NCBI GenBank assembly: GCA_016490735.1
Contig: JAEMWC010000079.1
Location: 275,001 to 339,000, forward strand
DNA length: 64,000 nt
Direction of reading: 5' to 3'
DNA from: Pachyseris speciosa
Lineage: Eukaryota > Cnidaria > Anthozoa > Scleractinia > Pachyseridae
A program made the position numbers and the translations under genes. Of this stretch, positions 2,857-43,100 are shown piece after piece. Under the pieces are notes generated by a model. The model did not search any database. It had not been told where the DNA came from and was given only the letters and a program-made list of their open reading frames with translations. Every line of letters starts with the position of its first letter. The stretch's first letter is position 1.

Positions 2857-3659
2857 TGTTAGATTCAAACGTGCTGTTTTACATTCCGTGCTTAGTCACG
2901 CGTATAAGGGCGCATTCTTTAGTTCACATGGGTTCGCAATTTAGGCTATGTCTACACTATGCCGGATAACATTTTATGCCGTTGTGAAAAATACTACGGC
3001 CTGGTGTGAACGGCAGTGGCCCAAAACCCAATTTTTGCTTCTCGTTGTTGATTTCCGTTTCGGTTCGATTCTTTGTTCACACTACTCCAGAAAGTGTCAC
3101 GAAAACCTATCCGATATGTGACGATTCACTTTCAAGACCGCAGCGGCCCAGCATCGCTCCGACGCAAAAATCGTGCCGAAATCATCGTTTTGAATGTGAA
3201 CAAAGGCCCTATCCGATATGGTTTTCGTGCCGGCACAAGAGCTATCCGGTATAGTGTAGACATAGCCTTAGAGTTTCGCGCCTCAACCTTTCAGTTGAGT
3301 CTTTTCAATCCGGCCGCAGTCAAGTCAACCAGAGTAGTCTGCTCATCAAAGCTCTAGTTCAAGTTCAAGCTCAGCGTTCAAGTTTTCGTTTCAAACTACT
3401 GCTAGGAAACATTTGTAAGTTCACGTGTTTAGCCACTTCCTTTTATTACCGTTCTCTTTCGCTTATCAGTGTTGTAATTTTTTCTCTTCTAGTCGAACCA
3501 TCTCAGTCTTCTCAATCATCTCAACAACGATTCAATCAAATCGACAAGTCTGTAAAATCATCAAGTCATTGTAATCAACGGAGTTGTACTCGGATGCGTT
3601 CGGAAAGATCGTAATAAAGTAGTTTCGGTGTGTAGTTTGGTCCAAGTTTGTGAGCTACA
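2857..3659 (+). mobile_element. Solo LTR of an LTR retrotransposon, with nested MITE
   Basis: The segment starts TGTTAG, ends CTACA and is flanked by a perfect 5-bp direct repeat CTTAC (2852-2856 and 3660-3664), the signature of LTR-retrotransposon integration. It has a TATA-like GTATAAGG near 2902 and a polyadenylation hexamer AATAAA near 3613, in LTR order. Removing the nested MITE (2944-3267 plus one TTA) leaves an LTR of about 476 bp. No gag-pol sequence or partner LTR is seen in the window, so it is a solo LTR formed by recombination. Gypsy-type is a guess. Confidence 0.7.
2944..3267. mobile_element. PIF/Harbinger-type MITE inside the LTR
   Basis: The 324-bp element has inverted ends of about 25 bp (GGCTATGTCTACACTAT followed by G or A, then CCGGATA) and a TTA target duplication (2941-2943 and 3268-3270). 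TTA duplications are typical of PIF/Harbinger elements. It has no transposase, and the two overlapping ORFs here (3006-3357) are shadows. Its insertion post-dates the LTR. Confidence 0.8.
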
Positions 3660-6130: not shown

Positions 6131-6134
6131 CTAA

Positions 6135-6810
6135 AAAAACGCCTACAATATGAGTGCAAAATTTCGGCAAATGGTTTTCAGAGTTAATCTAGGTTTACTT
6201 CATAACTTCACTTATCAGTTGTAACCTGTGCAGGCGATTGACTGGAAAAGCAAAACTCTGCTTCTTCGCATGTCGTTAGTTAATCGAAGCTATAAGTTTT
6301 CTGATAAAACAATTGCAACTATTTATTGACACTCTCTACGAAACATACAGCAAATCATTGCGGTTACAATTCAATAAGTTTGTCACAGAATTTCAAAATA
6401 AAAAACTTGCTTTGCAGGCTAATTTTTACATTCTTATTTTATTATTATTATTTTTTTTTTCACCTCATCTGGAATTGGCCGAAGCTTGTCTTGCTAATCT
6501 CTAAACTGCTGATCAGTGTCCTGACGCCAGGAAGTCACTTGTCCTAAGCTTCTGTTCCTTTCATCCTGGTCAGATTTTCCAAGCTGTAAAGACATCCAGT
6601 GAGGAATTGTTAGCATTACAGCGTGCAATAGAGAAACTACACCTAGTGAATGCGTTAGTTAACTCTGATACTACAAACGGGAACTTCTTTCATGCAGTGT
6701 TACTCGAGACGGCTGAAATTGATGGTGGTTCCGATGCTTTGCAGCAGCAGAAGAAGAAGGAGGAACAGGAGGAGGAGGAGGAAGAAGAGGAGGAGGAGGA
6801 GGAGGAAGAG

Positions 6811-7047: not shown

Positions 7048-7089
7048 AAGGAGGAGGACAAGGAGGAGGAGGAGGAGGAAGAGGAGGAT
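6135..7089 (-). pseudogene. Left half of duplicated segment with dead copy of exon 10
   Basis: This stretch is a near copy of 40333 to about 40990. It includes the fourteen-exon coiled-coil gene's exon 10, copied here at 6464-6583 (-). The copied exon has an in-frame TAG at 6494-6496 (- strand) where the 40-kb copy has TTG, so it is not functional. The homology runs into a GAG/CAG microsatellite and is broken at 7090 by the helicase/recombinase element, resuming at 15374. The 174-aa plus-strand ORF here is the microsatellite read as poly-Glu. Confidence 0.8.
6748..7089. repeat. GAG/GAA microsatellite, left block
   Basis: About 340 bp of nearly pure GAG/GAA triplets with scattered AAG and CAG. 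In the paralogue at 40968-41010 the same site is a short CAG/GGA run, so this array expanded after the duplication. Poly-Glu, poly-Pro, poly-Ser and poly-Arg ORFs over it are artefacts. Confidence 0.9.
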
Positions 7090-7360
7090 CGTTTCCCAAA
7101 TGTCCCCGTTCCTTTTGCTATATTGCGTTAAATCTATTTAAGTCTTAGATATTATATCGCGCCATTGTTGATTCATCGCGTAAAAGGATTTAGAAGTTGA
7201 ACTGCAATTTTCCAATCAATATAAAATGGAAAAAGACGTCAACGTTGTTGGATTTTGAAACAAAGTTGAAAAATTAAAGGTAAACAGTCCAAAATGTTCT
7301 CTCAGAAGCAGGCACTTGACTGAGATATAGAAGGAAATGACTAAGTTAAATCTATCAATG

Positions 7361-7767
7361 TTTCAAAATCCGTGAAATCCGTCTTTTCCGCCGTGTTTAA
7401 TAAAAAGGTTAACTTAACTGCTCATCAGCACTGGAAGTTTCCACGGAATGTTTTTTCCTAATAATGGCGGAAAGGACGGATTTCGCGGATTTTGCGGATT
7501 TGTTTTTAATTTGTTTTAATTAATTCTTCTCTTTAAAACTGTAAGTAAAATATTATTATTAATATATTATAATATATTATTTATATTATACTTACAGTTT
7601 TAAAGAGAGGTTTTAAATCAAACTTAAAAATCCGCAAATTCCGTAAAATCCGTCCTTTCCGCCATAATTAGGAGAAACCTTCAATAGAAACTTCCAGTAC
7701 TGGGAGGCGGTTGGATGAAACTTTCTTCTAATCACGGCGGAAAGAACGGATTTCACGGATTTTGTGA
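7361..7767. repeat. 0.4-kb imperfect palindrome
   Basis: Two arms of about 200 bp mirror each other. The outer words are AAAATCCGTGAAATCCGTC and its reverse near 7745; then CCGCCGTG and CACGGCGG; then GGCGGAAAGGACGGATTT (from 7465) and AAATCCGTCCTTTCCGCC (ending 7665); and innermost CTTTAAAACTGTAAGTA and TACTTACAGTTTTAAAG around an AT-rich centre near 7565. It lies near the left end of the helicase/recombinase element. It could be a fold-back MITE inserted there or a hairpin belonging to the element. Confidence 0.75.
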
Positions 7768-8224
7768 AAACGTTCAGATTAATTTTGATATCTCTCTGTA
7801 AAACTTAACCATAACATTTTGCGCTTTCATCGATTGGCTTTGAAATACAAGATTTTACTTATCTCTGCTTTCTATATTCTGTTTCAACTGTTTTTATTGA
7901 ATCACATCCTACATTTGCGGTGACATAGAAGACGTTAAATCTTTCTTCAAAAATCAGTGACACTTTCACGTCACTTTTCTACCTTCCCCAACATCAAGAT
8001 GAGAACTGTCTCAGTTCATTTATTCTTGTTGGTTTTTTTTTAACATGAGTCGTGATAATTGTGTAATACACGATGAAAACACGCCGCTGTATATGACATT
8101 TTCTCAACTCTTTTCGCTTGCCCATTAGTTCTGGTTGATGTTGTTGTTAGCCCCTACTGGGACCATGTGTAGACAGTATTTCCTAAATTCCTCTCAAACG
8201 AATTTACCGTCATTGTGGCTTGTT

Positions 8225-8575
8225 AATCGAGTTTATTATTTGGTGTAAAATAGCTGTTGATTGCTGACCAGCTCAAATATTAATAGCAAAAATTAAATTC
8301 GGGAAAGTAACGGATGAGAAAATTCGTCTACAAAAGTAGCCGTAAATAGTCTGAGAACTGATTGCGTGTCGCAATTGGCTGATTAAAAATGTCACTGTTG
8401 CTTCGTTACCTACTTTATTGTTCGCTGTGAAAGAGCTGTTCATAGCTGACCAGTGCGACGAAAAATGGCATTCACATGAAAATTACGTAGCAAGAAAAGT
8501 CGTCTAGAAATTTCACTGGAGAGCACCTGCGAACTGATAGCGTGTCACAATTGGCCATTTAAAACAAACAACTAC
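8225..8575 (+). repeat. Degenerate direct repeat upstream of helicase gene
   Basis: Two diverged copies of about 180 bp (about 8225-8400 and 8405-8575) share TTTATT.TT.G.TGT, AGCTGTT...TGCTGACCAG, TCGTCTA.AAA and GAACTGAT.GCGTGTC.CAATTGGC. They lie directly before the first coding exon of the helicase gene, so they may hold its promoter or belong to the element's control region. That role is inference. Confidence 0.55.
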
Positions 8576-8681
8576 GTCTTCTGTTGATTGCATTTTGTGT
8601 GGTATAATTATTCCTGGGTACTTCACAAGTCTTCTCTCTATAAAAGAAAAACACGTTTCAGGGCTTACATTGTCGTTCAAG

Positions 8682-11600
8682 ATGCAGAGGGCTCGTTATC
8701 CATGCCGTCAACTAAACAGCAGGACGATAAAAAGCGCTGCGTTGTGCTACTTGAGCCCTGTAGTTTTGGGAAAATGTAGTATTATCAGTGCAAAGTGTGC
8801 TTGCAAGGTTCAGGAAGAAGGTTTTGAAAATGCGTGGAATGGCGTGTGTCGAACTAGAGATGCCTGTGATAAAGCTCTGCAAGGTTTGTTTATGTGTGTG
8901 CTGTTTAAAATTTCGAGCTTTTCTGTTGTTTGGGTGGAATTAATTGATGCAGATTCAGTGAATAATATAGCTTGTTTTGTCTATTTCGCAGGCATGAAGA
9001 ATGTCGCATTCTTTTTCAGCGCCATTAGCTCGCAAAGTCTAAAGAAAGAACGAAGCAGGAAAAGGGCGCATGTCGAGGAAGAGGGGAGCGATGATGCAGA
9101 CGAATTTCCGGATTCGAGTCAATACTGCCCCCCTAACGGCAATTCAACAAGCCAAGAATGGGTTGCAAGTCACGCCACAATCATAAATCAGAAGCTGTGC
9201 CCATGTGTGAGTTATTGGATCGCTCTGACCACGCCAAATGGTGCACCGTGTAGTCCTCTTGTTATCCACCGAGCCTTCCTGGAGTGCAACGTGGATGTCT
9301 TCGCAAATCAGGTAACAACTTTATTCCAATCGTAAAATTGACATAAGTAACACTAATCAGTGATAAAGTGTAATAATTCTTTTACTACCTTATGACAAGG
9401 CATTAAATTAAAAAAAAAATAGCAAAAGGCAGGCTTTAAAGTAAACGTGTAACTGCCCAAGATGATCCCAACGGTTAGATTCAACAACTTATAATTTCAA
9501 AGTACACTAACTTTGAATTTCCTCGGTACCGAAAATTACTGATCACTTGTTCACCAGCCGAATGCTGGTTATTATGAAAGAACCGGAATCAACTTGTTAA
9601 ATATTTCTCGATTTTAGGTCCCCTGCTACGAGGGTAAAGAGACTGGAGCGATGAAAGAGCTGTTCAAAGTCCTTAAAGACCACAAGAACCCGTTTATGGA
9701 GGACCTAGTGAGTTCGTCTTACAACTATTGCTTTCGTGATGAATTTGAAAGTTTCGTGGGGGACGCCGATTCAGTGGATCTCGACCAATGCGGCACGGAG
9801 AACGTAGTCCGGATCTGTCTGGTCGATCCATCGTTCTCTTCCAGTCTTTCGTGGGCTTTGAGAAAACTTGAAGATGTAAAACTGGTCATCGACCAGTTCG
9901 GCTTCCAATTAGACGGCTCGGCTGTTCCAAGAGAGAATGAAATCGTCAACGAACAGGCAAGATTGTCCGATAAACTAACAGTGCTTGTTAATGACATTGG
10001 CATCGCAATGAAAAGGCTCGGCTACGCTTTGTACGGTGGAAAAGTGTACAAGAAATGCGACAAGGCAAAGTACACCTATTCCTATAAGTGCGAGGTGGAG
10101 GCGTTCGTTAATAGTTTGGCGGCGAACGAGTCTTTCAAGGCGGGACTCCTAAAGGACATGAAGAAAGTCATCGATATCCTAGCCAACCCGCACTGCGAGG
10201 TCATTCGACCACTTTCTGTAGATTATAATTTGATTGAGGTAAACGACGGCAAGTGCTGGTCAATCAAGGAGCGTCGCTTCCTGGAGAATGTGATCGCGGA
10301 CAAGGACATTGGTCATGTTACACCACTTGCGTTTAGTTTGTAAGATCCAACCAGAGAGCCAGAACCGAAGTTTTTCAAAGAAATTTTGGAAAACAGCCTC
10401 ACAGAAGCTGAAATTGAGGAATTTTGCGAAGATTTCTTGAGGCTCTTGAATCACAATCAAAAGAGACACAAAGACAAAGTTCCTTGCCTTATTGGTGCCG
10501 CTAATAGTGGAAAGACGAGTTTATTTCAACCAATTCTAGGCCTGGTACATCATGGCAACATAGCGACTATCACTAAACAGCGCGTCTTCAATAAGGCCAT
10601 GATCAATCACTTCACAGAAGTAATCTTCGTGGACGAAGCGAGTCCTTCCACACTAGATATAGATGACTGGAAAATCCTAACGCAGGGCGGTTACACAGCC
10701 TGTGACATCAAGTATCAAACAGCTAAGTCATTCATTAACCGTTGTCCGATGCTTTTAACAGCGCAACAGAAACTTGAATTCGGGCCAGAGGACCAAGCAG
10801 CAATGGACCGTAGGCTAAAGAACTACGTCTTCAAGAGTTTGCCTAACCCGAGGAAGAAAGCAGCAGAGTGGCTCAGAAAACACTCCATGGATTGTGTGGG
10901 CCTCGACGAAAGCGCGTCCGACGACGGACCAAGAAGAAAGCTCCGACAGCAGCTTGGGAGAAGAACACATCGGTGACGGCGTTCTTAAAGACGAGGAGAA
11001 GGACGCTTTACGAACGCTGCCTCTCGCAGACGTCTGGACTGACACTCTTGACGAGACAGGCGAGACAACAGGCACAACAGCTGACGCTGGCAGTGACAAT
11101 ACAGTCGACTCGGATGACGACCAGTGCATTCGTAACTTGAGGAGAGCACTTGGGCTATCTTCCACAGGTTCCCTGCGACATAGACAAATTGCCAGCATCT
11201 TGCACACGCGCGTCAGAGAGAAGGAGGACGAGAATCGGCGGAGACGTGAACTACATAAGGCAAGACGATCTTTCCTGACAGAGAGGGGATCAGCAGCGAG
11301 ATTGCCGAACTGTTGCCAGAAGACCCCGACGCAGCGATGCCAAGTCAAATTCAAAGACAACTGCAGAAGCACTGCGACGAACAAGTAGCACTCAAAGAAC
11401 AAGAACGACGCTAGAAAGCTCGTCGAGCGTTCGAAGGCACCTGGATAAGAGCTACCGAGGTCGAGCTGAAGAACTGCTGCGACAAATATCAACGCAGTAG
11501 CGATCCCACGGTTCGCACTAACGTCAAAGAATGGATGAAGGTCCTGTGCGACAAGTTAAAAATGCATCACAAGTCCTTGGGCACTTTCAACACCGCCGAG

Positions 11601-12020
11601 GCTGTCCAAGAACGAAACAAGGTATGCACCGCTCTTGGACTGCTGAGGGAAGAGCAGCAGCACCTGGTCACAAGCGTTGCTGAAAGGCTGCCTGTGTTGC
11701 CTAGGCCTGTCCTCAGTTCGGAGACCGAGGGAGTACAGGAACATGTATCTGAGACGGATGAGGAAGGGAGTATTTTCATCACTCAGCAGTGTAATGGCGT
11801 AGATGAGACGGAAGACGTAGAGAGTATTTTCATGACTCCTCTTCCGAGCACAAGTGGTGCGTCTATGCCTCATTCAAGCTTCGACGACTCCGCAGTTTCT
11901 GCTGCACTACTTCGAGCTAGCACTACCAACAAGAAGAAGCGAAAGAGGCAATCCAGCAGTCAACGAGCAGTCAAAAAATCCCAGAACCTTCTAACTCGAT
12001 ACTTTACTAGTCAAAAGTAA
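8682..12020 (+). pseudogene. Superfamily 3 helicase gene, decayed
   Basis: An ATP-dependent replicative helicase of the SF3 class is inferred. Visible motifs: Walker A GAANSGKTS (10494-10520), Walker B VIFVDEA (10620-10640), a motif C position RCPMLLTAQ (10740-10766) and an Arg-finger-like MDRRLKNYVF soon after. Motif C normally ends in Asn; here the end is Ala-Gln. Likely introns are 8884-8991 (108 nt) and 9312-9617 (306 nt); both are GT-AG and keep the frame. The first exon is Cys-rich, and the region between it and the helicase core matches nothing I know. The C-terminal third is acidic then basic. Breaks: an in-frame TAA at 10341-10343, a frame change near 10925, a compensating one near 11265-11285, and a TAG at 11412-11414; the final stop ends at 12020. 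The start at 8682 is a choice (8595 is also in frame). The gene runs convergent to the recombinase. E1-, NS1- and polinton-like-virus helicases are the families to compare. Confidence 0.7.
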
Positions 12021-12584
12021 AAGCAGTTTTTTTTTTCTCGTAAGATAGGCCGTAATGTAGAGTGGTCGTTTCCAGTACTTTGCTACTTTCCCACATTAAG
12101 TAAATAGAATTAGGCAATCAGAACACTACATGTACCTATGAGAACTAGTTACAAGAATGGGCTTTTGCGTCCAGAAATTACAGTTTATTACAGTTTGATC
12201 ATTTATAAAACGCACTCCGTAGATCAGTGTGTTAACAAGCTAGCTGGTAGTCAAATTTTCATCATTAAATGGTTCAGTTTCCACTGCATTTTAGTTGGTG
12301 TGCATTTGTCGATTCTTTCTAGTTCAATTGCTAACCGAGCGGCATTTTCATTCAGGCCCTTTTGTTTAGAGAGTACATAATATATTACATTCATTAAACT
12401 CACGCTTTAATTTGTAAGAGAAAAATCATTATAGTTCTGTGGCAGTTCAGTTCAATGAATGGCAAGCATTTTGCTTAATCAATGACTGTTGTTGGTTTTT
12501 ACTTTAACGAGGAAGCACGACAAGCTTTCTTAGTAGTAGATATGCCAAAAACAACTTATCTCGGCGTTTAGAAAAGTGTTCAGT
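12021..12584. other. Intergenic gap between convergent element genes
   Basis: About 560 bp between the two stop codons. It is AT-rich, with no ORF worth calling (an 80-codon plus-strand frame is unconvincing) and no clear AATAAA for either gene. It presumably holds both 3' UTRs. Confidence 0.5.
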
Positions 12585-14285
12585 TCAGATGCATGACCCT
12601 GGTGAAAATTTGAGTCCAGCCCTTTTCTTTAGAGAGTCTGCCGTTCTGCCCTCTTGAAACGTGTACTCGGGATCTCTCAAAATAGCGGTCCATTGTCCAA
12701 ATCCGTGCTTAGCAATCCCTTCCTTGAGAAACTCGTCCTCGTATGCTGTAAATTTCAACGCCCGGCGCTGACTTCTTTGGATTCGCAATGGGTTTGTCGG
12801 TGGGGCATTCCTCTCAGGGGGCACTACGCTTTTCGATTCTGCGCTTTCAGCCAGTGCCGCAGAACTTGACGTTGAATCGCGAAATCTCGTATTCACCTCC
12901 TTATCCAGTTCGGAGCCTTTAGCACCTTGTAGCTTTTGCAGACACTCGTGAGCCTTCGCAGCAACTTCGCGCGACCTCTGCATTTGATAGTGAACTTTGG
13001 CGACGGCTGAGCTGTGTTTCTGATCTTCCGACAAAATCCTTTGCTCTTTGCTAGTGAGCTGATTGAGGCTTTGCGTTTCGACGATTTGGCGATAGCGCGT
13101 CGGGTGAATGTACTTTCCGATTGCGTCAAAGACTAGTTTGCTCATGACATCGCCCAATTTGCTGTGTTGTCCCCCATTTCTCGTCACCAGAACGAACTCG
13201 CACTGGGGTTTCAGCAATGGCCTTACGAAATCGATGTAGCCATCGAGCACCTGCATGCTTGCGTCGGTCAGAATCAACGAGTCAAATCCGTACTTGCCAG
13301 CAGTCTTGAACTTTTTCTGGTCGATAAATCCCCCGTTCTCCTTGGCTGTCTTAACCATGTCGACTGTCAAGTACTGATAAGTCATAGGGCGAGACCCCTT
13401 CACCTTGATGAACAAATACACCGCTACAAATTTCGTGGCAGATGTTAAGTCCGACGGGTTGACTTGACCCGGACTTGTCTTGCACGTCTTCACGGTGTTT
13501 TCGTAACGAGGCAAATGAAACGTCACCACTTGTAACAGTTTTTCCAGGGTTGCCCAGTGCCCCCTAGCATCCAGAGTTTCAATGTCTAGATCTTGTGTCC
13601 ACTGCAATCTCATCATCTTTGCCACCGTCTTGCGAGCTCTTTTCAGGCACAATTCTGTCGATGACAAGTTTCGGAGAACTCCGTCAGAGGCGCCATTTAT
13701 TTTTCTGAAGTCGATCATTTCAGAGATGGCATCAATGTAGCCCAATCGTCCACCGTGTCCTAGCTTGCATTCGTCCTGCAAGTGATCGATAAACTTGAAT
13801 AACAGACTGTGAGAACACAGGCTGAAGTCCAGCACTTCAAAACTCAATTCCTCCTCGTCTTCGCAGCAAAATTTGAGAAATTTGAAACACCTCTTGACAA
13901 TCTGCTGAGCTGCGCGATCTTTCTTGCAACCACCGCCACTTCCAGTCAACCATTTCGTGAATGATTCGCCAATTTGGCTGCAAACCGAAAATGATGGCAA
14001 TACTCTGGCAGGTGGTTTTGCGATTTCGCTCGTTTTATCGTCATCGGCAAGTTCTTTGGTACTTGCAACGGGCTTTTCGTCAAAGAAAAAGAACCAACTG
14101 TGCTTGGTGTTCACGTGCTTCCTGCAACCGCGTTGACTTTTAAATCCATCGTGATCACACACTTGTATTGGACAGTGATACAAGCTATCTGTTTCGTCCT
14201 TTTCCAAGTGAAGCCGTTTCGGTTTCGGTGATGAGCCATCGATTTTCGACCAGTCAACCTTGCCTTTCTTGTTCATCTCTGACAT
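12585..14285 (-). CDS. Tyrosine recombinase with C2H2 finger and Myb domain
   Basis: A 566-aa intact single-exon ORF, inferred to cut and rejoin DNA for the element. Residues 38-62 form a C2H2 finger (C38-x4-C43-x13-H57-x4-H62). Residues about 105-260 are helical and resemble the core-binding half of a tyrosine recombinase. The catalytic half is complete: Arg-I R299 (GSRPMTYQYLT), a Lys in the 324-331 stretch, H394-x-x-R397 (HPTRYRQ), H424 and Y433. The H-to-Y spacing of nine residues matches lambda Int and Cre. Residues 508-556 look like a telobox-type Myb/SANT domain (EDEFLKEGIAKHGFGQW ... RTADSLKKRAG). The start ATG (14283-14285) is followed by a lysine-rich tail. The order finger-recombinase-Myb is not one I know from Cryptons, DIRS or virophages, though Cryptons are the nearest transposon class. 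An intact frame beside a broken helicase gene suggests recent activity or mobilisation in trans. Confidence 0.85.
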   Translation of the reverse strand: MSEMNKKGKVDWSKIDGSSPKPKRLHLEKDETDSLYHCPIQVCDHDGFKSQRGCRKHVNTKHSWFFFFDEKPVASTKELADDDKTSEIAKPPARVLPSFSVCSQIGESFTKWLTGSGGGCKKDRAAQQIVKRCFKFLKFCCEDEEELSFEVLDFSLCSHSLLFKFIDHLQDECKLGHGGRLGYIDAISEMIDFRKINGASDGVLRNLSSTELCLKRARKTVAKMMRLQWTQDLDIETLDARGHWATLEKLLQVVTFHLPRYENTVKTCKTSPGQVNPSDLTSATKFVAVYLFIKVKGSRPMTYQYLTVDMVKTAKENGGFIDQKKFKTAGKYGFDSLILTDASMQVLDGYIDFVRPLLKPQCEFVLVTRNGGQHSKLGDVMSKLVFDAIGKYIHPTRYRQIVETQSLNQLTSKEQRILSEDQKHSSAVAKVHYQMQRSREVAAKAHECLQKLQGAKGSELDKEVNTRFRDSTSSSAALAESAESKSVVPPERNAPPTNPLRIQRSQRRALKFTAYEDEFLKEGIAKHGFGQWTAILRDPEYTFQEGRTADSLKKRAGLKFSPGSCI

Positions 14286-14651
14286 CTGTGTGATTCACAC
14301 AGTTTGTTCCACTTGCATAAATTGTGAACAAACTACAAATGTGACGGAAAAAAAGAATGGCTGCATTGTGCAACTTGCCCCAACTTGCCCCCGCTTGCTC
14401 AGGCGTGGCAGTGTGTGCTATTCGTAATTAAACTTGCAAATCTAAGGTGACATATGACGTTGGTGCGATGATGTTCAACCTTGTCCGGACAAGTCAATAA
14501 GCGCCTCGAAATGTATTTTAAAATATGTTATGGACTGTGTTTCGAGTTTTTCCAGCTTAAAACTATACACCAAACGTTTTACCATTTTAAAAGCAATAAA
14601 CTGACATAGATGGCAAGAAGAGAAGAATGTTTCTGTTGAACAACACGCACA

Positions 14652-15210
14652 AAGGAACTGCCGTTTTCTAAATAGGAACCATTGTGCACAAATAGGAACT
14701 GATGTTTAGGAACAAACTGTTCCACGTGCCCATAAAAAGGAACATTTCATTCAAAACGGAACCATTAATGGGAACAATTGTTCCTCAGATGAACGAAAAG
14801 GAACCAATTTTCAAAGCAGGAACGACGAAAGAAAGGAACAAACGTTCCTTTACAAGAAAAAGGAACGTAAGCATTTGGGAACGAAAGTTCCTCACGCCAG
14901 CATAAGGGAACAGCTACTCCAAAAGGGAACGCATTAATAGGAACAATTGTTCCTCAACTGCATAAAAAGGACCAAAATAATTAAAAGAGGAACAATACCA
15001 TAGGGAACACTTATTCATAAGTCACTCATTTGAGGAACAAAACGTTCCTTTCAATGTTAAAAATGCGGAACAAAAGGTTCTTTTAAGCTCTAAATGAACA
15101 CTTTGTTCCTATTTTTCACAGCAGTTTGTTCCTTTTGATGCTAAAAGGACCACTTCAAATAGGAACAATCGTCCCATGATGGGAACGTTCCCAAAGCTAA
15201 AACGGGAACA
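14652..15210. promoter_or_regulatory. Dense GGAAC/GTTCC word field
   Basis: In about 560 bp I count about 22 GGAAC and 9 GTTCC; two or so would be expected by chance. Seven places pair the words head to head with 0-5 bp between: 14709-14723, 14771-14784, 14835-14848, 14878-14891, 14940-14953, 15034-15048 and 15182-15191. The field lies upstream of the recombinase start and about 150 bp inside the right end of the element. It could be a binding-site array (recombinase, helicase loading or origin) or an inserted word-rich MITE; similar fields of other words occur elsewhere in this window. Confidence 0.8.
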
Positions 15211-15373
15211 GTGCTCAAAAATAAAATGTAATAAAAACGCCACTTAAGGGATGACAAAAACATACTAAAGCGTTTTAAGAATCTCCATGCTGAAAACATA
15301 CAACAGCCAAAATTTCATCGACCAAATCATGCTAAAACATGTTCAAATCCGGCAGTAAAAATTTTGGGAAACG

Positions 15374-15852
15374 TAGGAGAGGAGGAGGAAGAAGAGGAGG
15401 AGGAAGAGGAGGAGGAAGAGGAGGAGGAAGAGGAAGAGGAAGAGGAGGAGGAGAAGGAGGAAGAGGAGGAGGAGGAGGAGAAGCAGGATGAGGAGAAGGG
15501 GGAGAGGAGGAGGAGGAGGACAACTACTACTACTACTACAACTCAAGGGAAAAAAAGACGACTGGAAGCGGAAGTCACAGGAGGTGCTTTTTGTGGGAAA
15601 ACTTGAAGACTTAGCAACGGTACATTTTGATCAACTGCATTAAACCGTATGGGCATCAAAATGTAAAATGTTGGGTTAAAGGGTGTAGACTAGCGACTGG
15701 AGTTAACGCTACACTGTAGCTGCTTCACACTAAATTGTACTAACTTTAGAGTTCATCATGTGCTGCAGCTACATTGCACGGTTTACTCTATATGACTGTC
15801 TGTTAAATGTGTTGCTTATAGTGTGCAGTGCATGGTGATGAATTTTAAGAAT
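15374..15852. other. Right half of the duplicated segment
   Basis: After a GAG/GAA block (to about 15521) and a TAC run, the sequence matches about 41020-41432 closely (GACGACTGGAAGC, GAAGTCACAGGAGGTGC, TGGAGTTAACGCTACACTGTA). Homology stops after GAATTTTAAGAA. It lacks the 94-bp MITE present in the 41-kb copy. No gene is called: the plus-strand frames differ from the paralogue mostly by amino-acid-changing substitutions. Confidence 0.8.
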
Positions 15853-36337: not shown

Positions 36338-36615
36338 ACACCAACAAAGAAAACACTTCACAGACTCAAGCGTTACGTGACAACAGAAACAAAGAAAACA
36401 CTTCACAGACTCAAGCGTTACGTGACAACAGAAACAAAGAAAACACTTCACAGATTCAAGCTTACGTGACAACAGAAACAAAGAAAACACTTCACAGACT
36501 CAAGCGTTATGTGACAACAGAAACAAAGAAAACACTTCACAGACTCAAGCGTTACGTGACAACATAAACAAGAAAACACTTCACAGACTCAAGCGTTAGT
36601 GACTACAGAAACAAA
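36338..36615. repeat. 45-bp minisatellite
   Basis: About six copies of a 45-bp unit that starts GTGACAACAGAAACAAAG, continues AAAACACTTCACAG and ends ACTCAAGCGTTAC. First and last copies are partial; two copies carry 2-bp deletions. The 86-aa minus-strand ORF with a 15-aa repeat is this array read through. The array lies 3' of the last coiled-coil exon I could place. Confidence 0.9.
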
Positions 36616-37160
36616 GTTTGCACTTGAAATCTTTGCTTTGAAAAAGAAAACTGAAGGATTCAACAACTAACTAATCAGGTCTCGCGCTTAAATTTCCTGG
36701 GCTTATTCATAGTTGACATCACCCAGCAGAAGCGGTGCTAAGTCACATTCTATGTCGTGTTGTGTCCTGTGTCTTTGTTGAGTGGCGTTACAATTGAAAA
36801 ACTAAGCAAGTTTGCAACTCCTTTATGTCCACTTCTGCCACCAACAGATTGCTGTATTTCTTTACTCGTAACACCACGTACCTCTACGAGTCCTAAACTG
36901 TATGATAGCAATTATGCGTAACAATTTTAGGCCGAACGCTTTCGTACGTCCCCACTCATTCGAAGCCAATCTCGTGTCCAGAGCCCGCGTTACACTTATC
37001 CAGCGGAACCGGTATGTTCCTTGTTCAAAGCAAAGAAGTTGTCAAAGGAAAGTTGAAAAAAAAAATAAATAAATAAATAACAACACCGGGGAGAAAATGA
37101 GACATTTCAAAATACACACATCACCACACTGCACATGTTTTGAGTAAATGAGGGACATAC

Positions 37161-40100: not shown

Positions 40101-43100
40101 CATTTTGTTTTACCCTTGCGATCGGTTAAGCCTGGTTTCCATTGAGCACAGACCGTGGGTTTTTTTTTTGGCAAGTGGAAACAAATGCAAGCGCAAACAC
40201 AAACACAAACATAAACACGAACACGAGAATATATTTGATGGATCGCAAAACCCAGGTTTTGTTTATTCACAGACGGAGCTAGCCGACACTATTTGTTCAA
40301 ATCGCTGAGTGAAACAGTACAGAAAAAAAACGAATACAAAATGAGTGCAAAATTTCGGCAAATGGTTTTCAGGGTTAATCTTGGTTTACTTCAAAAACGG
40401 CTGCCTCGAAACAATCCCATACCTTCACTAATCTGCTATCTGGTTTGACGTGCAGGGCGATTGACTGGAAAAGCAAAACTCTGCTTCTTCGCATGTCGTT
40501 AGTTAATCGAAGCTATAAGTTTTCTGATAAAACAATTGCAACTATTTATTGACACTCTTTACGAAACATACAGCAAATCATTGCGGTTACAATTCAATAA
40601 GTTTGTCACTGATAAAAAAGGAGAATTTTAAAATAAAAACTTGCTTTGCAGGCTAATTTTTACATTATTTTTTACACCTCATCTGGAATCGGCCGAAGCT
40701 TGTCTTGCAAATCTCTAAACTGCTGATCAGTGTCCTGACGCCAGGTAGTCACTTGTCCTAAGCTTCTGTTCCTTTCATCCTGGTCAGATTTTCCAAGCTG
40801 TAAAGACATGCAGTGAGGAATTGTTAGCATTACAGCGTGCAGTAGAGCAACTACACCTCGTGAATGCATTAGTTAACTCTGATACTAGAAATGGAAACTT
40901 CTTTCGTGCAGTGTTACTCGAGACGGCTGAAATTGAAGGTGGTTCATGTTTTGCCGGCAGCAGCAGCAGCAGCAGCAGGAGGAGGAGGAGGAGGAAGAGG
41001 TGGACAACAACAACAACTACTACTACTACTAGAACTCAAAAGGAAAAAAGACGACTGGAAGCAGAAGTCACAGGAGGTGCTTTTTGCGAGAAAACTTGAA
41101 GACTTAGCAACGGTACATTGTGATCAACTGCATTAACCCTTTCACCACCAAGGGGCACTTTATAGATTTTACTCTAGCTAACGCCAGACGATTTTACTCG
41201 CCAAAGGTAGGCCACTTGGTGGTGAAAGGGTTAAAGAGTTTGGGCATCAAAATGTTGGGGTTAAAGGGTACACTAGCGACTGGAGTTAACGCTACACTGT
41301 AGGTGCTTCACGCTAAATTGCACTAGCTCTAGAGTTCATCATGTGCTGCAGCTACATTTCACGGTTTATGCTCTTTGACTGTCTGTTAAATGTGTTGTTT
41401 ATAGTGTGCAGTGCATGGTGATGAATTTTAAGAAGATATTTTACCTTTTCATTAGGGCCAACATTCACGATCTAAACATCACATTTAACACAAACAGGTT
41501 CATTGTTAGTCATGCTTTTTATAATGTATTTTATTTCATTCTTCATTACGTTGGGTGTTCAAAAGGTCACAATGATTCGAGAATCCACGGAAATGGCATA
41601 TTCAGTTTCACTTCTCAGGAAAGTGATCAGGTGCTATCGAAAACGAAAAAACCTCAGTTCGCATTTCTCTAAGTATAATTACATTAATTTGTTGATTTAA
41701 CCGGCAAAGACAGCAAAGAATTAGGTTCAATAAATTTTGGAGACAAAACACGTCGACTACAGCGTAGAAAGTTTAGCAGGCTCAGAGAAATGCAGACAAA
41801 AACAAACTAAATAAATAAATTAGATTTATTTAGCGCTAAAATTATGAAATATTCTAAAGCACTTTACAATGTAAGTTCAAATCAATTCAAATCAAATGGA
41901 TTCAAATCCCATCTGGAACTCAGATTTTTTCTGAGTTTCCATTTGGGGTTTCATGCATTCCTATCATGTTGTAAGATTAAAATTATTAACAAAATCGATG
42001 TTGCAGAATCTCAAACAGGTTAAAAAAGATTTAGGTACATATCATTTCTGCAAGAATGAAACACGTACTTTTTGGAGTTTGCGTATGGCGTCTTCCATTT
42101 CTCCTAATCTCTTATTTAGCTTGCTTAGCCTCGTGTCCATATCAGCAAGTCCTTTAACCCCGGAGTTGCTATTCTTGTCCATCATTTCCTTCAATTCGTC
42201 CTTGGCCTGAAAGATGAACACATCACAATGTTTCTAACTGTTCTCTCCAAAACCTCAGCTCAGTACAGTATCTGCAAATTTATCCTACGCAACAACTCGA
42301 TAATAATAATAAAAATTATAACAACAATAACAACAAATCGATTAACGTGTCGTGTTATGTAGCTTACACAATACAATACAAACATTTGCTGCAAAAGATT
42401 TTCACTTTAAGTGTTGACTGCAATTAAACTTTACTTTAAGCGAAACATTTGATTCACAAAACGTTCTCAACGAGCGAGATGAAAACTTCGGTTAACCGCT
42501 AAATCCTGGGTTAAGGCAGTTCTGTTAGACTGTGGAATTGTTGTCTCGCAATGGCGTTGCGAGACAAGTTGCATGAGACATTGCACAGTGTAACAGCGCC
42601 TTTAGAACAACTGGGCCCTGTTTACTTGAATTACATAATGTACTTTAAATTACATTAAAATATTCAAGTTAGCAAATAAAAGTACCCTCTTCTTAAGAAT
42701 AACAATACATGTACAGGTTTCCAATGTCAGATGGGACGCAGGTGGCAATTCTTATAGTCCTCTGAGGTTATATCTTGGAGGTCTACCTTCCTGATTTTCT
42801 TCTTAAAAACATTAATCGATTTGGCCTCTTTTGACATCAGTTCTACTCAAAATGAAGAGAAGTTCGTAAAGTCAGGAATGTGAACCAATACCAGTTCCAT
42901 AACGTTTTTTTTTACTTCAGAGTTCGTTAGAAGTGTAGCTGATATCTGATCATAATTAAAAACAGACTACCTTCTCTACGCTGTCAGACACTTGCGAGTT
43001 GACGCCCGCCAAAGCTTGCTGCAATGTGCTGATAGCCATGTTTAATTTTTCTTGGAGCTGGTTGCATCTGCTGGACAATTTATCACTTTGGGACTGCCTG

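Follow-up and report, generated by a model that had tools for sequence, protein, structure and literature searches.

We analyzed a 64,000-nucleotide stretch of the genome of the coral Pachyseris speciosa, referred to here as the window (contig JAEMWC010000079.1; G000:C79:275001-339000 of a 984-Mb assembly). We consider it likely that the window contains a two-gene, capsid-less mobile element that circularises and integrates at a lox-like site by means of a tyrosine recombinase (YR), and whose replication probably relies on its own superfamily 3 (SF3)-type helicase. In the window copy, an intron-containing SF3-type helicase gene on the + strand, which is broken, lies convergent with a YR gene on the - strand. 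A first-pass annotation of the window had described inverted ends, the two convergent genes and an absence of other coding sequence; the lox-like junction, the arrays, the targeting of purine repeats and the empty site in the window are additions to that description. The features of the element are as follows.

7088..15379, + strand: whole inserted unit, AT + 7090-15373 + TAGGAG, 8292 bp, within an (AGG)n tract; placed by flank comparison, the target AGG^AGG and a paralogous empty site
7090..7100, + strand: left terminal arm CGTTTCCCAAA, half of the putative lox-like site; exact match
8682..8883, + strand: helicase predicted exon 1; donor GT 8884-8885
8992..9311, + strand: helicase predicted exon 2; acceptor AG 8990-8991, donor GT 9312-9313
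9618..12020, + strand: helicase exon 3; SF3-type ATPase about 10344-10973, C-terminal basic stretch, PIP-box-like QNLLTRYF
12585..14285, - strand: tyrosine recombinase, 566-amino acid (aa) open frame; C2H2-like finger about residues 38-62, catalytic region about 291-440, Myb/SANT 511-555
14640..15221, no strand assigned: array of 31 GGAAC/GTTCC sites, a candidate for the replication origin or for an accessory region bound by the recombinase
15363..15373, - strand: right terminal arm CGTTTCCCAAA, exact match; TAGGAG directly outside

Ends, junctions and insertion targets

The 11-bp inverted ends were found exactly where the first-pass annotation had placed them. With one mismatch allowed, the end sequence matched twice in the window against 1.82 matches expected from shuffles; the end pair therefore proves little within this single sequence. 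Other copies with different flanks, however, share both end points with the window element, which settles its boundaries, and a chance pairing of the ends was rejected. The best limits for the inserted unit are 7088 and 15379, because its removal leaves an unbroken (AGG)n tract (AGG^AGG). The inverted ends were present in the subfamily-1 copies read at both ends, and in subfamily 2 the right arm carried one change in copy L027 and two in L041. The motif GTTCC lay at element base 19 in the window copy and at base 18-19 in 5/5 left ends counted.

Several copies were arranged in arrays, in which the right end of one copy joined the left end of the next, head-to-tail, as TTTGGGAAACG-8 bp-CGTTTCCCAAA. 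We searched the whole genome for two perfect facing 11-bp arms with 4-12 bp between them and obtained 33 places on 26 contigs; the spacer was 8 bp in all 33, and the reversed arm pattern occurred at 0 places in the same search. Among the 31 spacers shown of the 33, the spacer (TANNAGAT) read TAATAGAT in 24, TAGGAGAT in 5 and TAGAAGAT in 2. YR sites are described as two inverted arms of 11-13 bp around a spacer of 6-8 bp in the part of the literature consulted (PMC3212892). Judged by its letters, the element junction has the form of a lox/FRT-type site of tyrosine recombinases. At the outer ends, GAT preceded CGTTT in 13/13 left rows and TANNAG opened 9/10 right rows; therefore, the spacer is split between the two ends and the target is entered at G^A.

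Arrays could also have formed with no circle, if ordinary insertions underwent tandem duplication and unequal crossing-over. The units of the C1785 array were 100% identical over 9374 bp, which speaks for this route and against ours, as unequal exchange or an assembly effect is possible there, and the repeated units on contig C1184 each carry their own microsatellite tract. Block duplication would, however, bring the flanking repeat between the units, as at C1184, whereas the 33 junctions measured exactly 8 bp. Moreover, junctions on C1431 and C322 joined subfamily-1 to subfamily-2 copies, as did one on C917 by coordinates alone. Such mixed joins are not readily made by plain duplication and would be made by a circle integrating beside a resident copy. 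A pure tandem-duplication origin was rejected on the uniform 8-bp junctions and the mixed arrays, and we regard arrays built without a circle as highly improbable.

Two further loci are recorded here as observations. On C1184 (L032), three left-end units at 3198, 5473 and 7734 were spaced about 2.27 kb apart, each with its own GAA tract, and belong to a duplicated block that holds a short non-autonomous derivative. On C751 (L020), at about 1480-1500, GA repeats, a G run and TAATAGAT preceded the left end, as though a right end had been lost and its spacer left behind; this is a possible scar of excision or deletion.

The outer flanks of the copies consisted of (GA)n, (AGG)n, (GAA)n or related tracts. 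We counted 23 flank rows (13 left and 10 right), leaving out array-internal junctions and the GAA tract that flanks C14 on the right. Mean purine content was 0.886, and 15/23 rows reached 0.85 or more, a value reached on either strand by 82/9138 38-mers of the window. The independent sites are fewer than 23, because C1918, C440 and C339 represent one site, two of the rows come from neighbouring places on C1184, and the left flanks of C945 and C1918 are 96% alike. The window also contains an unoccupied paralogue of the insertion site, that is, a natural empty site, in which a short CAG/AGG tract is present and the element is absent.

40324..41434, + strand: unoccupied paralogue of the insertion site; 85% to 6133-6731, 93% to 15521-15646, 89% to 15640-15851

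The recombinase and helicase genes

The full active site that the first-pass annotation had assigned to the recombinase was located, as R-K-HxxR-H-Y, in the 566-aa frame, with putative catalytic residues R299, K327, H394-x-x-R397, H424 and Y433. We take these to correspond to the catalytic residues of lambda Int and Cre; the letters themselves were checked. The HxxR motif and the 9-residue H-to-Y spacing equal those of lambda Int and Cre, and the remaining distances are similar but unequal. The pattern R..HxxR..[HW]x8Y, which was picked after the protein had been viewed, occurred in 16/2000 shuffles. Residues 291-440 were 94.0% identical between the subfamilies, compared with 48.6-85.5% in other parts of the protein. 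The ratio of nonsynonymous to synonymous change (dN/dS) was 0.10 at a dS of 0.92 between the window and subfamily 2, and by this measure the YR is under selection. A C2H2-like finger at the N end was read by eye. At the C end, a Myb/SANT domain matched PF00249 at E 5e-5, just below the cut-off, and the nearest chains in the PDB were TRF2 Myb domains (E 0.02).

The helicase gene likewise carried the SF3 Walker A/B and arginine-finger motifs noted earlier, in a copy that proved to be broken: the frame of exon 3 is interrupted by a stop at 10341-10343 and broken at least once more, near 10970; its parts were analysed separately. Open relatives of exon 3 were found in L025 (790 aa), L022 (832 aa, including some residues upstream of the splice site) and L030 (650 aa, to the stretch end), which answers the earlier suggestion to look for intact helicases. 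Predicted exon 1 aligned with L022 over 68 aa at 53% aa identity (E 7e-27) and with L027 over 60 aa at 37%; exon 2 showed 53% (L025), 44% (L022) and 28% (L027). The predicted exon joins are supported because a single unbroken frame in L027 matches exons 1 and 2 together with the beginning of exon 3. The subfamily-2 helicase gene at L027 6505-7095 is without the first two introns seen in the window copy, and its frames are divided at different positions; intron positions therefore seem altered within the family.

Within 10386-10973 we recognized the motifs that commonly define SF3 helicases (Walker A/B, sensor or motif C, arginine finger): GAANSGKT as Walker A, EVIFVDEA as Walker B, TAQQ as sensor-like and RRL as the finger. 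The Walker A, Walker B, sensor and arginine-finger positions were invariant across four helicase types. Against Pfam, the window piece matched DUF5906 at E 3.2e-5, below the cut-off, and Parvo_NS1 at E 3.6e-4, with 20.1 bits against a cut-off of 20. Profiles of SF3 kind matched the same stretch in 2/4 types (DUF5906 7e-6 to 1e-4, Parvo_NS1 4e-4 to 0.012, PPV_E1_C 0.0015). The PHROGs library returned weak primase matches to the helicase piece (best E 0.0035), and profile libraries detected no primase or polymerase domain in the helicase and element frames scanned. The assignment to SF3 thus draws on motifs together with weak profile matches and should be read as probable.

Between helicase types, synonymous sites were saturated (proportion of synonymous differences 0.82-1.0) and the nonsynonymous proportion was 0.21-0.47; nonsynonymous change stays far behind synonymous change, and the helicase is conserved. 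Its C-terminus holds a basic stretch and, in 3/4 types, a Q-x-x-hydrophobic-x-x-aromatic-aromatic motif (QNLLTRYF, QNTITKYF, QTRVTRFF; the fourth reads PNTLLNYF), which we read, by our own recognition, as a putative PIP box. The candidate origin packs 31 GGAAC/GTTCC sites into 582 bp; other stretches of that length in the window hold 0.79 on average and 6 at most. About 1 kb of four other right ends contained 33 (L025), 33 (L022), 21 (L027) and 18 (L041) such sites. The left part of L022 held 12 per 1500 bp, and other left parts held 1-3. This array is a candidate origin or accessory recombinase site.

As the earlier annotation had stated, no other coding sequence was apparent in the window element; the longest leftover open reading frame (ORF) has 225 aa and is antisense to the helicase. 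The non-coding left part contains, at 7364-7770, a palindromic repeat with arms of 43-50 nt that are 84-90% complementary. It is common to other copies of the window helicase type and resembles a nested insertion like a miniature inverted-repeat transposable element or a large hairpin.

Copies, module exchange and proposed mechanism

In searches of the assembly, 77/878 first-look candidates were scored for the YR and 57/805 for the helicase. The window YR gave at least 78 rows (copy C352 being split in two), of which 51/78 were without an internal stop. The subfamily-2 YR, 82% identical in aa to the window YR, gave at least 77 rows, of which 25 repeat places found with the window YR, for a union of at least 130. 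The exon-3 helicase of L025 gave at least 58 rows, and 46/58 were without an internal stop. A convergent YR (3' end to 3' end) lay within 3 kb of 34/58 helicase rows among the matches listed, and divergent or same-strand partners numbered 0 each; two of the 34 (C178) are pieces adjoining one YR. Mere adjacency of two unrelated genes was therefore rejected. Both genes recur together between shared ends in other copies, as the first-pass annotation would have it, and both are open in some of them.

We listed frames from 80, 100 or 110 aa upward in five two-ended copies: C327 (8687 bp), C1785 (9366 bp, with the first 1.8 kb read from an identical neighbour unit), C945 (8238 bp) and, from subfamily 2, C1431 (8676 bp) and C14 (about 8.63 kb). 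No further gene-like frame, such as a possible capsid gene, was seen in these five, the extra frames not having been run against family libraries. The extra frames overlapped the two genes, and the subfamily-2 pair added low-complexity frames of up to 180 aa. The two checks suggested with the first-pass annotation, on linkage of the genes and on capsid genes in complete copies, thus both turned out in its favour. C1431 and C14 were 97.5% identical over the whole 8.7 kb and differed in their flanks.

Copies C1785 and C327 shared 99.3% DNA identity in the YR half, with a YR dS of 0.02, whereas their helicases were 50% identical in protein with saturated synonymous sites. A recombinase half about 99% identical beside helicases about 50% identical indicates that modules have been exchanged. 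The break lies near window position 12356-12374, between the two genes.

These copies also bear on whether the helicase serves replication. In a Crypton-like YR transposon that moves by excision and integration alone, the helicase would be a passenger or would act in excision or repair. The YR by itself would account for the sites, the arrays and the repeat targeting, and C305 (both ends) and C130 (left end to contig end) keep the YR though the helicase exons are gone. These two copies fit, as expected, the pattern of non-autonomous members and could move in trans. Furthermore, 46/58 listed helicase rows lack an internal stop, nonsynonymous change is far below synonymous, and complete copies swapped the helicase for other helicases instead of losing it. 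We therefore regard a helicase without a replicative role as unlikely, though it is the strongest of the alternatives.

Under the preferred account, the YR would act on the joined ends TTTGGGAAACG-TANNAGAT-CGTTTCCCAAA, excising and integrating a circular form. The circle would integrate at a G^A step in purine-rich repeats, and integration beside a resident copy would build the head-to-tail arrays. The SF3-type helicase would probably copy the circle with a host polymerase, which may be recruited partly through the PIP-box-like motif and hence a contact with PCNA. Replication would possibly start in the GGAAC-repeat region as an origin. The sequence itself demonstrates the ends, junctions, arrays and empty site, the selection on the YR, the conserved helicase and the exchange of modules; the circular intermediate, the part of the helicase in replication, the origin and the contact with PCNA are inferred from it.

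Several results weigh against this account. Neither a circle nor expression or replication was observed. Among the flanks, 8/23 rows fell below 0.85 purine, down to 0.66 (left C1918, C339 and C945 at 0.84; right C305 0.76, C327 0.71 and the C1918/C440/C339 site 0.66), and the C1431 right flank lacked TANNAG (1/10 right rows). No recombinase profile matched the YR in any hidden Markov model library scanned, PHROGs included, and profile-profile comparison (hhalign) did not link the protein significantly to XerC, XerD, lambda Int or Cre; the best match, at E 0.079 and in the expected core-binding region, is at most suggestive. A single-sequence fold prediction of the YR had a mean pLDDT of 34 and was not used, so that the assignment as a YR is one of motifs, not structure. 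The dN/dS of the YR was 0.41 for the close pair window-L022, a value resting on few changes. For the helicase, every SF3-type profile match was below the curated cut-off except that of the window piece to Parvo_NS1, and the L022 and L027 types had no SF3-type Pfam match at E 1: the single match of the L022 type was the NCBIfam P4-type primase C-terminal model (0.0047), and the L027 type had none in Pfam or NCBIfam. The GTPase profile MMR_HSR1 (0.001, window piece) and GTPase chains also matched the Walker A stretch. A sequence search of the PDB gave weak GTPase and other chains alone for the helicase piece and one chance chain for the 790-aa exon, and the single-sequence fold prediction of the piece (mean pLDDT 37.5) was not used. 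Finally, 24/58 listed helicase rows had no YR partner among the matches listed, although one of them, C1431:159358, does adjoin a YR module.

Further observations concern individual copies. L037, L038 and L039 lie on three contigs (C1918, C440 and C339) at the same insertion site with the same flanks; the helicase of each has an internal deletion, and the three are haplotype copies or segmental duplications. Contigs C998 and C97 each carry two divergent recombinase genes about 4 kb apart at nearly equal spacing, a possible head-to-head product. Elsewhere in the window, a 45-bp unit is repeated in tandem at 36343-36616 (6.2 copies, 94% matches).

Relation to known systems and significance

YR DNA transposons and integrating elements combining a YR with an SF3 helicase (S3H) are each already known, separately. 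We did not file the element as a Crypton, polinton-like virus (PLV), nimavirus or DIRS because a defining feature of each was looked for and the element differed in it. Cryptons (CryptonF/S/A/I) are alike in their YR mobility enzyme, the absence of a reverse transcriptase match and a proposed circular intermediate, in the sections of PMC3212892 consulted; there, animal Cryptons are reported with no terminal repeats and no C-terminal domain, and the word helicase is absent from the main text. The present element, by comparison, has 11-bp inverted ends, a C-terminal Myb domain, an SF3-type helicase gene and no Crypton-type profile match. A Crypton-derived YR (DUF3504-like) gave no Pfam match to E 10, but no recombinase profile of any kind matches this protein. 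DIRS and Ngaro elements encode reverse transcriptase and RNase H, neither of which was matched by the six window ORFs scanned with Pfam.

Endogenous nimaviruses carry telomere-repeat-specific YRs with the target (TAACC)n and, in the portions of PMC10871703 consulted, resemble the element in a YR with a C2H2 finger, the targeting of one microsatellite class and suggested concatemers. They are large viruses whose genes include those for capsid and polymerase, whereas the element has two genes in 8-9 kb, without the nimaviral core genes, and lies in GA/AGG/GAA tracts; this comparison was made by description, with no nimaviral sequence (YR or other) compared. PLVs and virophages with an OLV11-like YR and S3H also pair a YR with an SF3 helicase in a eukaryotic integrating element, as parts of PMC4642659 describe. 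They carry capsid and packaging ATPase genes, whereas the five complete copies showed no such further frame and Pfam matched neither in the six window ORFs.

A reduced derivative of a DNA virus (PLV, virophage, or parvo- or adoma-like) that kept its replication and integration genes and lost those for the virion could look like this. The pairing of YR and S3H in PLVs and the weak resemblance of the helicase to Parvo_NS1 and PPV_E1_C are consistent with such an origin; set against it are the lack of any further gene-like frame in the five copies, the absence of an IMG/VR relative with four queries (single proteins and alignments) and of a primase or polymerase domain in the frames scanned. We find this origin rather improbable, somewhat more so than a helicase without a replicative role. 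Of the two proposals in the first-pass annotation, the circularising and probably replicating transposon has thus held up, whereas the virus relative reduced to replication and integration has so far found no backing, given no IMG/VR relative and weak viral SF3 scores.

Thaumarchaeal integrative elements are alike in YR integration, the reuse of one site into arrays and, in some, an S3H of their own, according to the parts of PMC6563490 consulted. Compared with prokaryotic integrative elements, the present one has a eukaryotic genome as host, introns, microsatellite targets and no detected primase domain. Published work on YR with SF3 helicase surfaced PLVs, virophages, archaeal elements and nimaviruses. 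A search of titles and abstracts, which covered few subscription journals and had Repbase outside its scope, returned no capsid-less eukaryotic element pairing a YR with an SF3 helicase; the combination that the first-pass annotation could match to no named family found none in the searches made.

The Staphylococcus aureus pathogenicity islands and phage-inducible chromosomal islands (SaPI/PICI) are prokaryotic integrative elements with a YR and, in some, an S3H. Cre-lox of the P1 plasmid and Flp-FRT of the yeast 2-micron plasmid likewise place inverted arms around an 8-bp spacer on circular DNA; the element differs in having perfect 11-bp arms and in sitting in chromosomal microsatellites. 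A fuller picture, which we hold with as much doubt as confidence, is that of a plasmid-like resident of the chromosome: it would be excised at a lox-like site, its circle copied by an SF3 helicase tied to host PCNA and re-integrated into purine microsatellites or arrays, with replication modules swapped behind a common recombinase. Such a chromosomal plasmid would resemble the bacterial phage-inducible islands, here without any known capsid partner.

Most animal DNA transposons multiply through the timing of host replication or through repair. If the account is true, integrative plasmids and satellite islands would have a counterpart in eukaryotes, one equipped with a replicative helicase of its own and a lox-like site on its circle, and a natural multi-copy site-specific recombination system would be functioning in a large eukaryotic genome. 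It may also provide a link between SF3-encoding DNA viruses and transposons, and the exchange of modules would allow a direct test of how mobile DNA combines replication and integration genes.

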